The notes under the pieces: generated by a model
Databases searched by the model: none
Seen by the model: only the letters and a program-made list of their open reading frames with translations
Told to the model about the DNA's origin: nothing
Assembly (NCBI GenBank): GCA_016841965.1
Contig: JAEANN010000044.1
Coordinates: forward strand, 310,001-374,000
Source of the DNA: Candidatus Roseilinea mizusawaensis
Lineage (GTDB): Bacteria; Chloroflexota; Anaerolineae; J036; Brachytrichaceae
Direction of reading: 5' to 3'
DNA: 64,000 nt
Translations under genes and position numbers: made by a program
In this document: positions 28,592-39,177 of the stretch, in pieces
Layout of the letters: each line of letters opens with the position of its first letter
Position numbering within the stretch: the stretch's first letter is position 1

Positions 28592-28662
28592 TACAGCAAA
28601 TCTCCAAACGCTTCACGCGACATGCCAACACCGACTTGACATGCCGCCTGTCACGTTTTGCG

Positions 28663-28804
28663 AGCCTTCTTTATATCCGGACTATAACCGTCGGCTCCGG
28701 CATTTCACCGGATCCTGCGCGCCTCTCAACGCGCTCGTGGGCTGTATGGCAGATCACTCACCTGCCAGACCACCGATCGGGAATTTCACCCTGCCCCGAA
28801 GGCT
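28663..28804 (-). promoter_or_regulatory. FMN riboswitch (RFN element)
   Basis: Read on the minus strand, the region contains the hallmark RFN conserved blocks in order: CAGGGTGAAATTCCCGATCG, GGTGGT, AGCCCACGAGCG, GGATCCGGTGAAATGCCGGA, then GCCGACGGTTATAGTCCGGAT. The P1 stem is formed by AGCCTTC (28804-28798) and GAAGGCT (28669-28663). The aptamer binds FMN and lies about 115 bases before the ribX start. Confidence 0.96.
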
Positions 28805-28808
28805 GTTT

Positions 28809-29461: not shown

Positions 29462-30946
29462 CTACCGCTGCCGAGGTGTGTCCGCGCGGTGAGCGTCGCA
29501 GCACAGGGTGAACGTCGTGCCGCGATCGGGCCGGCTTTCCACGTTGATTCGGACGCGGTTGACCTGGGCCAGTTCATGCACCAGCGCCAAGCCCAACCCG
29601 CTGCCGGTGCGCCGGTGGCGATCGCGCGCGCCGCGTTGAAAGCGCTCGAACAGGTGTGCCTGCACGTCGGGCGGCAAGCCGGGGCCGTTGTCCCACACCT
29701 GCACGCACACTTGGCCGTCTTTGGCCTCGGCCCGCACGCCAATGCGTCGGCCGGCCGGCGTGTATTTGCAGGCGTTGTCCAATAAGTTCCACACCATCAC
29801 GCGCATCTGCTCGGCGTTGGCCAGCACCGGCGGAAGGTGCGGGGGCACGTCTACCTCGACCATGACGTTGGCCGTGTCCGCCAGGGGTTGCACCTGGTCG
29901 GCCAAATCATAGAGCATGGGCGCAAGGTCTAGCGGCGCCAGCGGCGGATGATTGCCCTCGTCCAATGCAGAGAGCATCAACAATTGATCAATCGTGTGGT
30001 GCAGTTGATCAAGCGAGCGCAACACCGCATCCAGAAATTGCGGCGTCTCGTCCGGCGTTAAGCGCTGCGCTTGCATCATCTCCAGCCGCAGGCGCATTGC
30101 GGCGAGCGGCGAGCGCAATTCATGGGCGGCGTTGGCGACGAACTGCTTTTGCCGGTTGATCATCCGTTCCAGTCGCTCGGACATGGTGTTGAAGACCTCG
30201 ACGAGCTTGGCGACTTCCTGCGGCCCGCCGATCGCAGCCTGTTGGCGCAATTCGCCGTGCGCCATGGACTGCGCTGCTCGAGTCAGGTCGGTCAGTGGCT
30301 GCGCCATGCGCCGGGCGGTGACGACGGCGATCCCGCCGGCGATCAACGTGATAAGCAGCCACACGCCGCCCAACATGCTCCAAGACGCATAGATCCGCTC
30401 GCGCACGGGTTGCATGGGCGCCGAAAGTTGGATGTAGGCAATCGGCTCTTTGTTAGCGTCCAGCACCGGCGCTGCTGTGAATACCCGTTCGGCGTTGCTG
30501 ATGGAGTCCCAGCGAATGTCATGTTCCTCGCGGCGGTTGCGAGCGGCTAAGAGTTCGATGTGCTGATCCTCTCTGCCGATCGGCACCTTCGGATCGGTGC
30601 TCACCAGCATGAATAGCTCATCGTCCAGCACGGTGATCCGCATCTCTGGGTTCTCGCGGTGCAGAACCAACTCCTCGCGCAGCGTTTCAGACGAAAGATA
30701 GCCGTTTAACGTTGCCTCGATTTGATCGTGCAACACGATGGCCAGCAGGTGGTTCTGTATCTCTAGGTCATGCTCGGCGCTTTCGATAATTTCGACCTGA
30801 CTGCGATACGCCGACCAGAGCACCAACCCGCCCAGTCCAAAGAACACGATGAGCCAGTGGGTGAGGATGAGTTGGGCGCGCAGCGTCAAACGTCGCTTGC
30901 TGGGTTTAGCGATCGCTTGGGCGCTTGAAGCGGTAGCCGTAGCCAT
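29462..30946 (-). CDS. Sensor histidine kinase
   Basis: The 494-residue membrane kinase is paired with the response regulator just upstream. Two membrane helices (about 26-46 and 189-210) bracket an extracytoplasmic sensor domain of about 140 residues. A HAMP linker (about 210-262), a HisKA domain with HELRSPLAAMRLRLE (phospho-acceptor His about 275) and an ATPase domain follow. The ATPase domain has the N box NLLDNACKYTP, G1 box DNGPGLP and G2 box GSGLGLAL. ATG at 30946 overlaps the regulator gene by 41 bases, so translational coupling is likely. The signal is unknown. A 58-bp piece of this gene is repeated in the fragment mosaic near 39 kb. Confidence 0.92.
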   Translation of the reverse strand: MATATASSAQAIAKPSKRRLTLRAQLILTHWLIVFFGLGGLVLWSAYRSQVEIIESAEHDLEIQNHLLAIVLHDQIEATLNGYLSSETLREELVLHRENPEMRITVLDDELFMLVSTDPKVPIGREDQHIELLAARNRREEHDIRWDSISNAERVFTAAPVLDANKEPIAYIQLSAPMQPVRERIYASWSMLGGVWLLITLIAGGIAVVTARRMAQPLTDLTRAAQSMAHGELRQQAAIGGPQEVAKLVEVFNTMSERLERMINRQKQFVANAAHELRSPLAAMRLRLEMMQAQRLTPDETPQFLDAVLRSLDQLHHTIDQLLMLSALDEGNHPPLAPLDLAPMLYDLADQVQPLADTANVMVEVDVPPHLPPVLANAEQMRVMVWNLLDNACKYTPAGRRIGVRAEAKDGQVCVQVWDNGPGLPPDVQAHLFERFQRGARDRHRRTGSGLGLALVHELAQVNRVRINVESRPDRGTTFTLCCDAHRADTPRQR

Positions 30947-31646
30947 AGACGGTCTCCAGATAGCACGGGTTGGCCGGATCGGCCTCGAACTTTTCGCGCA
31001 ACCAGCGGATATAGACATCAAGCACGCGCGGATTGCCCACCCATGTCTCACCCCACACCCGGTCCAGTAGTTCTTGGCGCGAGAGCGCTTGGCCGGCATG
31101 TTGCATGAGCGCCAACAACAGGTCGAATTCGCGCTGGCTGAGTTTGACCGGCTGTCCGCGCAGTGATGCCTGGCGGGCCTGGATGTCGAGGGTGATGTCG
31201 CCGATGGAGAGGGCCGACGATGTCTCGGCTGGTTGCCTGCCGACGTGCCGAAGCTGTACCTGGATGCGCGCCACCAGCTCGCGGAAGCTGAACGGTTTAA
31301 CGATGTAATCGTCGGCGCCGATCTCCAGGCCCATCACACGTTCCATCTCTTGCCCGCGCGCCGTCAACATGATGATGGGCAGGGCGGGGTCGCGCGCGCG
31401 CAGCCTGCGGCAGATTTCATAGCCGTCCATGTCGGGCAGCATGATGTCCAGCAAAACCAGGTCGGGGCGCTGTTGGCCGATTTGCTCCAGCCCTTCTGCT
31501 CCATTACTGGCGTGCATGACTTGAAAGCCCTCTTTCGCCAGGCCAAAGACAAGCGGCTCGGCAATCGTGGGGTCGTCCTCGATGATCTGCAACAGCGGCG
31601 AGCGCGGTTGCGTGCATCTTTCGGATGGGCCATGTTCGGATGTCAT
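30906..31646 (-). CDS. OmpR/PhoB-family response regulator
   Basis: The 246-residue DNA-binding regulator has a receiver domain with acidic pocket EDD, phospho-acceptor Asp67 in [15 protein letters not shown], the conserved Thr in MLTARG and Lys in VKPFSFRELVARI. The C-terminal winged helix has KLSQREFDLLLALMQHAGQ and RVLDVYIRWLREK, ending in the VYGYGYRF signature. The first 16 residues precede the usual receiver start, so a slightly later start is possible. It is cotranscribed with the kinase downstream. A roughly 98-bp piece of this gene also appears as a damaged copy at 39082-39177. Confidence 0.95.
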   Translation of the reverse strand: MTSEHGPSERCTQPRSPLLQIIEDDPTIAEPLVFGLAKEGFQVMHASNGAEGLEQIGQQRPDLVLLDIMLPDMDGYEICRRLRARDPALPIIMLTARGQEMERVMGLEIGADDYIVKPFSFRELVARIQVQLRHVGRQPAETSSALSIGDITLDIQARQASLRGQPVKLSQREFDLLLALMQHAGQALSRQELLDRVWGETWVGNPRVLDVYIRWLREKFEADPANPCYLETVYGYGYRFKRPSDR

Positions 31647-31740
31647 GGTCAGAATCCTACATCTGGCCTCGATGCAACAGCGTCAGGCCTGTGCCGCACT
31701 CGATCGGAGGCTGCGATGTTCATCGAGTGTCTCATGCAAA

Positions 31741-31774
31741 CAGAGTGGGTAGCCCGATCGGGCTACCCACTCTG
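31741..31774 (-). terminator. Perfect 34-bp palindrome after the DUF5666 gene
   Basis: CAGAGTGGGTAGCCCGA and its exact complement abut with no spacer. The element lies 27 bases after the minus-strand stop at 31801 and is followed only by TTT. It is probably a terminator, although the U-tract is weak; it also lies just upstream of the response-regulator gene. Confidence 0.55.
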
Positions 31775-31800
31775 CTGGGTGATCTCGCCGGGAATATTGC

Positions 31801-32457
31801 TTATCGCTTGCCTTCAATCTGTGTGGCATTCACCGAACCGTCCGGCTGCTGGTAGCCTTTCACCTCGACGATGGAGCCGACGCCGATGGGGCCGTACTTT
31901 TGCTTGATTACGGTGCCGGGGCCGACGTTGACGGTGCGGCCATCCACCATCCATGCGCCATACAGGCCGGCCGGCAGGCTTTGTACCACGCCGTAGAACT
32001 TCGTATAGTAGCCAGGCCCGCCGCCATTGCCGCGTTTGCCTTCAATCTTTGTGGCATTCACCGAACCGTCCGGCTGCTGGTAGCCTTTCACCTCGACGAT
32101 GGAGCCGACGCCGATGGGGCCGTACTTTTGCTCGATTACGGTGCCGGGGCCGACGTTGACGGTGCGGCCGTTTACTACCCATGCGCCGTATAGGCCGGCC
32201 GGCAGGCTTTGCACCACGCCGTAGAACTTGTCATAGTAGCCAGGCCCGCCGCCGTTGCCGCGCTTGGCATCAATCTTCGTGGCGTTCACCGAGCCGTCTG
32301 GCTGTAACCAGCCTTTCACTTCTACGTAGGACCCCACCGCTATGGGGCCGTATTTCTGCTTGATCGCGGTGCCGGGGCCGACGTTGACGGTGCGGCCATC
32401 CACTACCCATGCGCCGTACAGGCCGGCCGGCAGGCTCTGCACGGTGCCGTAGAACTT
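31801..32457. repeat. Three 228-bp coding repeats
   Basis: Units at 32457-32230, 32229-32002 and 32001-31801 (the last one truncated by the stop) are near-identical at the DNA level. The last two differ at only a handful of residues in protein. They correspond to the DUF5666 units. Confidence 0.9.
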
Positions 32458-32559
32458 GAAGTTGCCGTCGTTGGGTTTAGCGAAAGCCGGTTGTAAGGCG
32501 ACCAGTGCTAGCGCGAAAGCCGCGATACCGGCGACACATGCTTTGATAAAGCGATTCAT
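31801..32559 (-). CDS. Secreted protein of three tandem DUF5666-like repeats
   Basis: The 252-residue protein has a Sec signal peptide (MNRFIKACVAGIAAFALAL, cleavage after PAFA) and three copies of a 76-residue unit starting at residues 35, 111 and 187. Each unit reads KFYG(T/V)VQSLPAGLYGAW, GRTVNVGPGT, QKYGPI.VGS.VEVKG and QPDGSVNAT. This is the small OB-like beta barrel called DUF5666, found in exported proteins of unknown role. Glycine-rich linkers (GNGGGPGYY) join the units. It is a single-gene transcript with a strong GGAGG site hidden in a hairpin and a palindrome after the stop. No binding partner can be inferred. Confidence 0.85.
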   Translation of the reverse strand: MNRFIKACVAGIAAFALALVALQPAFAKPNDGNFKFYGTVQSLPAGLYGAWVVDGRTVNVGPGTAIKQKYGPIAVGSYVEVKGWLQPDGSVNATKIDAKRGNGGGPGYYDKFYGVVQSLPAGLYGAWVVNGRTVNVGPGTVIEQKYGPIGVGSIVEVKGYQQPDGSVNATKIEGKRGNGGGPGYYTKFYGVVQSLPAGLYGAWMVDGRTVNVGPGTVIKQKYGPIGVGSIVEVKGYQQPDGSVNATQIEGKR

Positions 32560-32561
32560 CT

Positions 32562-32606
32562 GTTATCCTCCATCAGTGTAATGTTGGTTACGCTGATGAG
32601 GATAAC
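32562..32606 (-). promoter_or_regulatory. Long hairpin sequestering the DUF5666 ribosome binding site
   Basis: In the transcript, GTTATCCTCATCAGCGTAA (32606-32588) pairs with TTACACTGATGGAGGATAAC (32581-32562), giving a nearly perfect 19-bp stem with one mismatch, one bulge and a 6-base loop. The 3' arm includes the GGAGG Shine-Dalgarno, which ends 8 bases before the ATG at 32559. In the folded state ribosomes should not reach the start. Confidence 0.75.
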
Positions 32607-32787
32607 CAAAGCTAGAGGTAAAGTGGTTAGGCGGGCGTAAACAGGTTTTAAAAAGGTGGTTAACGCTCTAGAGGCGGGGCGGCCGGAGCCATGCGTGTAG
32701 GTCACAATAACATCGCACATCATCATCGCGAGGAATGCGCTGTGGGAAGGTCGAGCGGCATTCGGCTTCATCCAACAGCGCGCTGGC

Positions 32788-32850
32788 GAATCAGTCGGCT
32801 GCGAGGGCGCCGATGACATCATCGCCGATCTGGCGCGAGCGCTTGCATAG
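32788..32850 (+). pseudogene. Possible remnant of a PLP enzyme C-terminus
   Basis: In an intergenic stretch of 318 bases (32560-32877) the plus strand encodes ESVGCEGADDIIADLARALA followed by a stop. The pattern SVG.E..DD.IADL..AL closely recalls the C-terminal end of cystathionine gamma-synthase/lyase-type enzymes. No upstream part of such a gene is present. It may be a leftover fragment, or chance. Confidence 0.22.
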
Positions 32851-32877
32851 CGGGGCGACCTTCGGTAGTTGCTCACG

Positions 32878-33597
32878 TCAGTGTCCCGATTCGCCCAGGT
32901 AGGCGGCTCTCACCCGCGGATCGTCGAGCAGGCGCTTACCCTCGCCGGAGAGCGTGATCCGGCCGGTTTCCAACACGTAGCCGCGGTGGGCGATGCCCAG
33001 CGCCAGGCGTGCGTTCTGTTCCACCAGCAGGATGGTGGTGCCTTGCTGATTGATCTCCTGGATGATGTTGAAGATTTGTTCCACCAACACCGGCGCCAGC
33101 CCCATGGAAGGCTCATCGAGCAACAACACGCGCGGCCGGCCCATGAGCGCTCGGCCGATGGCGAGCATCTGTTGCTCGCCGCCGGAGAGCGTGCCGCCGC
33201 GCTGGTTGATGCGTTCGCGCAAGCGCGGGAAGAGTGTGAACACGCGCTCCATATCCTGTCGGACGCCGTCGGCGTCGCGACGCTGATAGGCGCCCATCTC
33301 CAGGTTTTCGCGCACCGTCAGCCGGGGAAAGATGCGCCGCCCTTCGGGGGATTGCAACACGCCGCGGGCGACGATCTCGTGCGCCGGCAGGTGGTCAATC
33401 CGCTGCCCTTCCAGCAAGATTTCGCCGTGGCGCGGCGTCAGCAGTCCGGAGATTGTCCGCAGCGTGGTGCTCTTTCCGGCGCCGTTCGACCCGATCAGCG
33501 TGACGATCTCGCCTTTCTCGACCGATAGCGAGATGCCTTTGAGGGCGTGGATGTTGCCGTAGTAGGTGTGGACGTCTTTCAGCTCGAGTAGTGTCAT
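32878..33597 (-). CDS. livF: Branched-chain amino-acid ABC transporter ATPase LivF
   Basis: The 239-residue ATPase is the second nucleotide-binding subunit of a Liv-type importer. Walker A is GSNGAGKST. LQSPEGRRIFPRLTVRENLEMGAY is the LivF-specific Q-loop stretch. The signature is LSGGEQQMLAIGRAL, Walker B is VLLLDEPSMGLAP, and the family continues with VEQIF, LLVEQNA and GYVLETG. ATG at 33597 begins MTLLELKDVHTYYG, the usual start. It is the last gene of the five-gene operon, 108 bases after livG, and no clear terminator follows. Confidence 0.93.
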   Translation of the reverse strand: MTLLELKDVHTYYGNIHALKGISLSVEKGEIVTLIGSNGAGKSTTLRTISGLLTPRHGEILLEGQRIDHLPAHEIVARGVLQSPEGRRIFPRLTVRENLEMGAYQRRDADGVRQDMERVFTLFPRLRERINQRGGTLSGGEQQMLAIGRALMGRPRVLLLDEPSMGLAPVLVEQIFNIIQEINQQGTTILLVEQNARLALGIAHRGYVLETGRITLSGEGKRLLDDPRVRAAYLGESGH

Positions 33598-33705
33598 GCT
33601 GCGCTCGATCACTGGTTAAGGTTAAGTCGTGTAACGTCTATCTGGTCATATCGGCGTAGGCGAAGGCATCGCCTTCACCCTCCACGCTTTAGACCAGCAT
33701 GGCGC

Positions 33706-38843: not shown

Positions 38844-39024
38844 CGAGCCAGTCAAGCGCTTGCTTGGCGGTGCGAATGCCGCCGGCTGGCTTGAACCCCA
38901 TGGGGTAGTCTGTGCGCGCGGCGTAGTCGCGAATCGCTCGGCACATCACCAGGCCAATCGGCAGCGTTGCGTTGACCGCTGCCTTCCCGGTCGAGGTCTT
39001 GATGAAGTCGGCGCCGGCCATCAT
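38844..39024 (-). pseudogene. deoC: Fragment of deoxyribose-phosphate aldolase gene (deoC)
   Basis: The minus strand encodes [20 protein letters not shown], then [15 protein letters not shown], the active-site lysine region of DeoC, and [19 protein letters not shown]. The piece covers only the C-terminal part of the enzyme and lacks both ends. It abuts the pyrG fragment on one side and a kinase fragment on the other, with only a few bases of shared sequence at each junction. Confidence 0.88.
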
Positions 39025-39081
39025 GACTGCGATACGCCGACCAGAGCACCAACCCGCCCAGTCCAAAGAACACGATGAGCC
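39024..39081 (-). pseudogene. 58-bp copy of part of the histidine kinase gene
   Basis: The 58 bases are identical to 30798-30855 in the intact sensor kinase gene and encode its first membrane helix ([16 protein letters not shown]). Orientation is the same as in the original. The junction with the deoC piece shares the bases TGA. Confidence 0.93.
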
Positions 39082-39177
39082 GGGCGGGGTCGCGCGCGCA
39101 GCCTGCGGCAGATTTCATAGCCGTCCATGTCGGGCAGCATGATGTCCAGCAACACCAGGTCGGGGCGCTGTTGGCCG
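39082..39177 (-). pseudogene. 96-bp copy of part of the response regulator gene
   Basis: It matches 31382-31479 of the intact response regulator except for a 2-base loss in the CGCGCG run and one substitution. It encodes the phospho-acceptor region [20 protein letters not shown]. About 525 bases that separate this segment from the kinase piece in the original are missing here. Confidence 0.93.

Follow-up and report, generated by a model that had tools for sequence, protein, structure and literature searches.

A gene for an exported DUF5666 protein, lying in the 64,000-nt stretch of DNA analysed here (the window), has its Shine-Dalgarno site inside one arm of a long inverted repeat. The question is whether the repeat controls translation, and on which RNA. 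A hairpin over a Shine-Dalgarno site cannot be called a translational switch until the transcript start has been placed – an RNA beginning inside the 5' arm is missing part of the stem. The features considered are listed in the table.

Features at and around the DUF5666 gene, in window coordinates
Feature	Positions	Strand	Basis
Sensor histidine kinase (HAMP, HisKA, HATPase_c)	29462–31099	-	domain profile matches
OmpR/PhoB-type response regulator	30906–31646	-	PF00072 and PF00486; nearest PDB sequence RegX3
Perfect palindrome, 15-bp stem, between the DUF5666 and response regulator genes	31741–31774		inverted-repeat scan
Target gene: exported protein with three DUF5666 repeats, 252 aa	31801–32559	-	Pfam PF18914, 1.9e-40
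Hairpin 3' arm (CTGATGGAGGATAAC), containing the Shine-Dalgarno site	32562–32576	-	sequence and folding; invariant in three close genomes
Inner 4-bp stem, 5' arm GTAA (partner 32581–32578)	32588–32591	-	folding
Outer 14-bp stem, 5' arm (GTTATCCTCATCAG)	32593–32606	-	sequence and folding
Putative -10 TATCCT within the hairpin 5' arm	32599–32604	-	all six orthologs have it 15 nt behind the final repeat
Four tandem 11-bp repeats: TTAACCACCTT (32663–32653), TTTAAAACCTG (32652–32642), TTTACGCCCGC (32641–32631), CTAACCACTTT (32630–32620)	32620–32663	-	periodicity, PHO-box likeness
livF, final gene of the liv ABC operon	32878–33612	-	domain matches

The inverted repeat (32606–32562, minus strand) was confirmed in the sequence. 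The 45-mer folds with a minimum free energy of -21.2 kcal/mol into 14 + 4 = 18 pairs, with a 1x1 mismatch, a bulged G and a 6-nt loop; an earlier sequence-only reading was right about the one mismatch and the one bulge but counted 19 pairs. GGAGG (32571–32567) lies in the 3' arm, with 7 nt between it and the ATG at 32559. That this arm masks GGAGG, as the same reading held, is borne out by the sequence, by the fold and by the cost of opening the site. This cost ranks first among the 158 genes with a Shine-Dalgarno site across 404 kb of the contig (the window plus 17 stretches), at 13.1 kcal/mol vs a mean of 3.44 (sd 2.26). At -26.7 kcal/mol, the fold of the 81-nt leader was equalled by none of 200 shuffles, whose mean was -11.9 (sd 2.63, z -5.6).

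Rarity was judged against the same 404 kb. A count of helices from RNA folding admitted too many (1,767 with at least 15 pairs) in a contig of 61% GC, and a scan for Watson-Crick inverted repeats was used instead. Including the hairpin, 17 repeats reach its score, vs 3 and 0 when the sequence was shuffled twice. No other of these 17 covers a credible GGAGG start; one overlaps a weak GAGG followed by a TTG codon, and another a GGAG ahead of a 60-codon frame. The hairpin is real and extreme for its neighbourhood. With 17 such repeats on the contig, one over a Shine-Dalgarno site is not astronomically unlikely, and this favours an explanation in which the repeat has no role as RNA: it would have arisen by mutation, for example by template switching that perfected a quasi-palindrome, and been tolerated. 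The first rank of the masking among 158 genes speaks against such an origin.

Placement of the transcript start depends on what lies in and behind the 5' arm. The leader was aligned among six family orthologs – the window, L002, L031, L032, L033 and L034. These are not independent; the window, L002 and L031 are close and L032 and L034 are nearly identical in the leader, leaving three lineages. Tandem 11-bp direct repeats upstream of the hexamer, as a PHO-box-like promoter requires, are present in all six. In each, 0–3 of 200 shuffles had an 11-bp periodicity as high (1–16 in a previous set of 500); for L033 a different period equalled or exceeded it. L040 carries the L031 gene in other flanking DNA, and there 9 of 200 shuffles matched the periodicity. 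The hexamer is TATCCT in four orthologs, TATCTT in L031 and TATGCT in L033, always at the same spacing. L032, L033 and L034 retain both the repeats and the hexamer, and all three are without the hairpin.

On this conservation, TATCCT is probably the -10 element of the gene's own promoter, and the four repeats probably bind a response regulator of the OmpR/PhoB type. The transcript is then predicted to start at about 32594–32590, and RNA from this promoter would therefore lack the outer 14 pairs. Translation blocked by default, as the sequence-only reading had it, would in that case not describe the gene's own RNA – most of the 5' arm would probably be promoter DNA and remain untranscribed. The same reading had named an untranscribed 5' arm as its own refutation, and the predicted start would in substance amount to that.

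The regulator boxes have counterparts in other bacteria. PhoB is described as binding tandem repeats of about 11 bp upstream of TAN3T, and PHO-box promoters (PhoB, SphR, PhoP) share with this one the head-to-tail 11-bp units and a TTAAC-like core (PMC1906773, PMC4415409). The resemblance to cyanobacterial Pho boxes extends to the SphR consensus CTTAACCT with its 3-bp linker, which is close to the units of the DUF5666 promoter (PMC1906773). The spacing from repeats to -10 differs from the 10 bp given for E. coli, and the regulator here is putative. The genome has a comparable array in front of pstB-phoU-phoB-like genes (named from their translations), and there too a -10-like hexamer follows, at a distance of 14 nt. 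Genome searches with patterns were less clear: TAACCACNTT gave 5 matches (2 in the DUF5666 promoter) vs 16 for reversed controls, no enrichment of the 11-bp motif by itself, and a two-unit pattern modelled on the DUF5666 promoter gave 4 genome matches vs 7 in controls. A pattern of three units matched nothing in the genome but the pst-like promoter, missing that of the DUF5666 gene.

A very stable stem over a Shine-Dalgarno site could also belong to the main transcript, with translation waiting for heat, a protein or a small RNA. This is unlikely. The 5' arm coincides with the conserved -10, and the hairpin is missing from orthologs that retain the promoter. No melting is predicted between 37 and 60 C: the Shine-Dalgarno site of the long RNA stays closed at several temperatures, with an unpaired probability of 0.201 at 37 C and 0.205 at 60 C. 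An RNA thermometer, and with it the opening by temperature suggested earlier, was accordingly rejected; known thermometers likewise hold the Shine-Dalgarno site in a stem, and differ from this one in their melting. No Rfam family matches the stem. A riboswitch or other known RNA leader was rejected after Rfam searches at the gathering score and at E up to 5 gave nothing credible at the hairpin. Translational coupling, also proposed in the sequence-only reading, was rejected as well – a 106-aa frame (32876–32556), overlapping the start as ATGA, is broken by stops in the two closest relatives, L002 and L031.

The explanation favoured here, and given an even chance of being right, is that the repeat works as a start-site switch, like that at gene e of phage T4, and guards against read-through. 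Under control of the response regulator, the gene's own promoter would make an RNA whose 5' end falls within the 5' arm; without the outer stem, this RNA would be translated. RNA entering from upstream, from the liv operon or from stray transcription, would carry both arms, fold and hide the Shine-Dalgarno site. The exported DUF5666 protein would thus be made only when its own promoter fires, and no melting factor would be needed.

Hairpins that block translation are described for T4 gene e, soc, 49 and I-TevI, and for gene e and I-TevI the long early RNA is masked while the late RNA begins inside the 5' strand and is translated (PMC3014915, PMC2988022). The T4 hairpins have the Shine-Dalgarno site in the 3' arm, as here, and a promoter (TATAAATA) whose sequence encodes the 5' strand, as the putative -10 region would at the DUF5666 gene. 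They belong to late phage genes, whereas the gene here is chromosomal, lies behind probable response-regulator boxes, and has a start and a masking that are predicted from sequence. Insertion sequences IS10 and IS50 are protected from read-through in a related way: the RNA folds back and hides the Shine-Dalgarno site, and the native start lies inside the repeat. The DUF5666 locus would share the fold-back and the start within the repeat, but has no transposase and no terminal repeats. Literature searches gave no clear chromosomal read-through hairpin outside T4, which is weak evidence given the collection and the search terms used. If the start-site switch is correct, a control scheme known from phage T4 also guards bacterial chromosomal genes, and a regulated exported protein is decoupled from its neighbour's transcription without a terminator.

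Two RNAs were compared by folding at 37 C, a long one that begins 100 nt before the ATG and a short one that begins at the predicted site. In the long RNA the Shine-Dalgarno site is predicted to be paired in a stable stem, as a switch of the gene e type requires. Opening it costs 11.3–12.7 kcal/mol in the long RNA of the window vs 4.5–5.0 in the short RNA, where the average of the 158 genes is 3.4. The difference is also positive in L031 (3.5–3.8), in L032 and L034 (2.5–5.3), where the -10 region can form six pairs with the Shine-Dalgarno site, and in L002 (1.1–4.9). In L033 masking is almost nil (3.6–4.8 vs 3.2–4.5 kcal/mol). When the fold takes in 80 nt of coding sequence, the unpaired probability of the site at 37 C is 0.14–0.20 in the short RNA vs 0.20 in the long; the short RNA is not fully open because the site can pair with early codons.

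The start-site switch is thus favoured because opening costs more on the long RNA than on the short, because the repeats and -10 are kept at a fixed spacing in all six orthologs and the hairpin is not, because a similar array and hexamer precede the pst-like genes, and because the interval behind livF has no terminator-like site (see below). It is weakened by the near absence of masking in L033, by a short RNA no more open in unpaired probability, and by the 11-bp motif not being enriched in the genome. A further weakness is the promoter itself, since TATCCT is a weak -10 match and a sigma-70 scan of 31000–33000 found no promoter.

The stem is confined to three close genomes, at -21.2 kcal/mol in the window, -20.5 in L002 and a weaker -11.3 in L031. 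L031, from Candidatus Roseilinea, has a 93% ortholog, and the window genome, of the Chloroflexota, is close to it. Four stem positions vary among the three, all in the 5' arm; three of the substitutions preserve pairing, one breaks it and none is compensatory, and the L031 stem has a one-base insertion besides. The chance that at least three of four substitutions preserve pairing is 0.016–0.11, depending on transition bias, which suggests selection on the stem and counts against a mutational origin. The check for covariation that had been proposed gave 0 compensatory pairs in three sequences, and its shuffle control was uninformative with an invariant 3' arm. The restriction to three close genomes and the lack of compensatory change also weaken the start-site switch.

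As the pairing-preserving substitutions are only suggestive, origin by mutation without selection retains an appreciable though minority probability. The pyrimidine-rich -10 (TATCCTC) is already complementary to the Shine-Dalgarno site (GGAGGATA), L032 and L034 have the six-pair match, and the stem is limited to three close genomes. Alternatively, the repeat could act as DNA: a dimeric regulator might use it as its operator from -10 to +30, or a cruciform might affect open complex formation. It does cover exactly the -10 and the initial transcribed region, but the 5' arm of L031 differs from that of the window by the insertion and at four positions, with most promoter repeats kept, and L032, L033 and L034 have no such repeat. 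A role as DNA is very improbable.

The start-site switch may have a more specific form, put forward only tentatively. The putative -10 TATCCTC would itself be an anti-Shine-Dalgarno sequence, and a promoter under two-component control could thereby carry its own translational insulator against read-through, the six-pair match of the relatives having grown to 18 pairs in this genus. If such dual use is general, a CCT-rich -10 near GGAGG is a built-in read-through silencer in bacterial promoters.

The livF gene lies about 319 bp upstream of the DUF5666 gene on the same strand, and no terminator-like sites were found on the minus strand of the interval between them. The liv operon is the likely source of any read-through RNA. 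The gap between the two genes (32559–32878 in the window) is about 274 bp longer in L002 and 450–470 bp longer in L031, possibly the remains of a decayed gene that was lost in the window. Downstream, the response regulator gene, followed by that of the histidine kinase, adjoins the DUF5666 gene in five of the six family orthologs including the window (in L034/L005 the contig ends first), and the regulator is a candidate activator. The palindrome between the two genes may serve as a terminator, although its T tail is weak, or may protect the 3' end.

Two other features were noted in the window. At the gathering score, the only Rfam match in the window is an FMN riboswitch at 28660–28807 on the minus strand. 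At 39024–39177 is a scar in which 58 bp identical to part of the histidine-kinase gene (30798–30855) is joined to 106 bp that is 95% identical to the response-regulator gene (31374–31479); it adjoins an apparent DeoC remnant and a sulfurtransferase gene, both named by eye.

The DUF5666 protein consists of a signal-like helix and three repeats. Its structure model has a mean pLDDT of 76, with strand-rich repeats and no more than weak matches to OB/cold-shock-domain chains. All five other family orthologs have two repeats; the repeats are 88% identical in DNA, and from this comparison the third repeat of the window gene is a recent gain. DUF5666 is mentioned in 4 papers of the literature searched, none of them devoted to it judging by the title or the opening of the abstract.

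More distant DUF5666 genes were compared at the 29 loci with usable upstream DNA (L014, L036 and L045, where it is absent, and L046 were left out). Three have 11-bp repeats matched by at most 3 of 200 shuffles – L029, where the match lies over the start codon, L042 and L043. Neither L042 nor L043 has such a two-component neighbour within 10–12 kb, and the viral contigs searched held no relative. At L018, L022, L023 and L028, the DUF5666 frames stand directly behind an apparent sigma-factor gene and have, by eye, anti-sigma-like starts. DUF5666 may be an outer sensor module.
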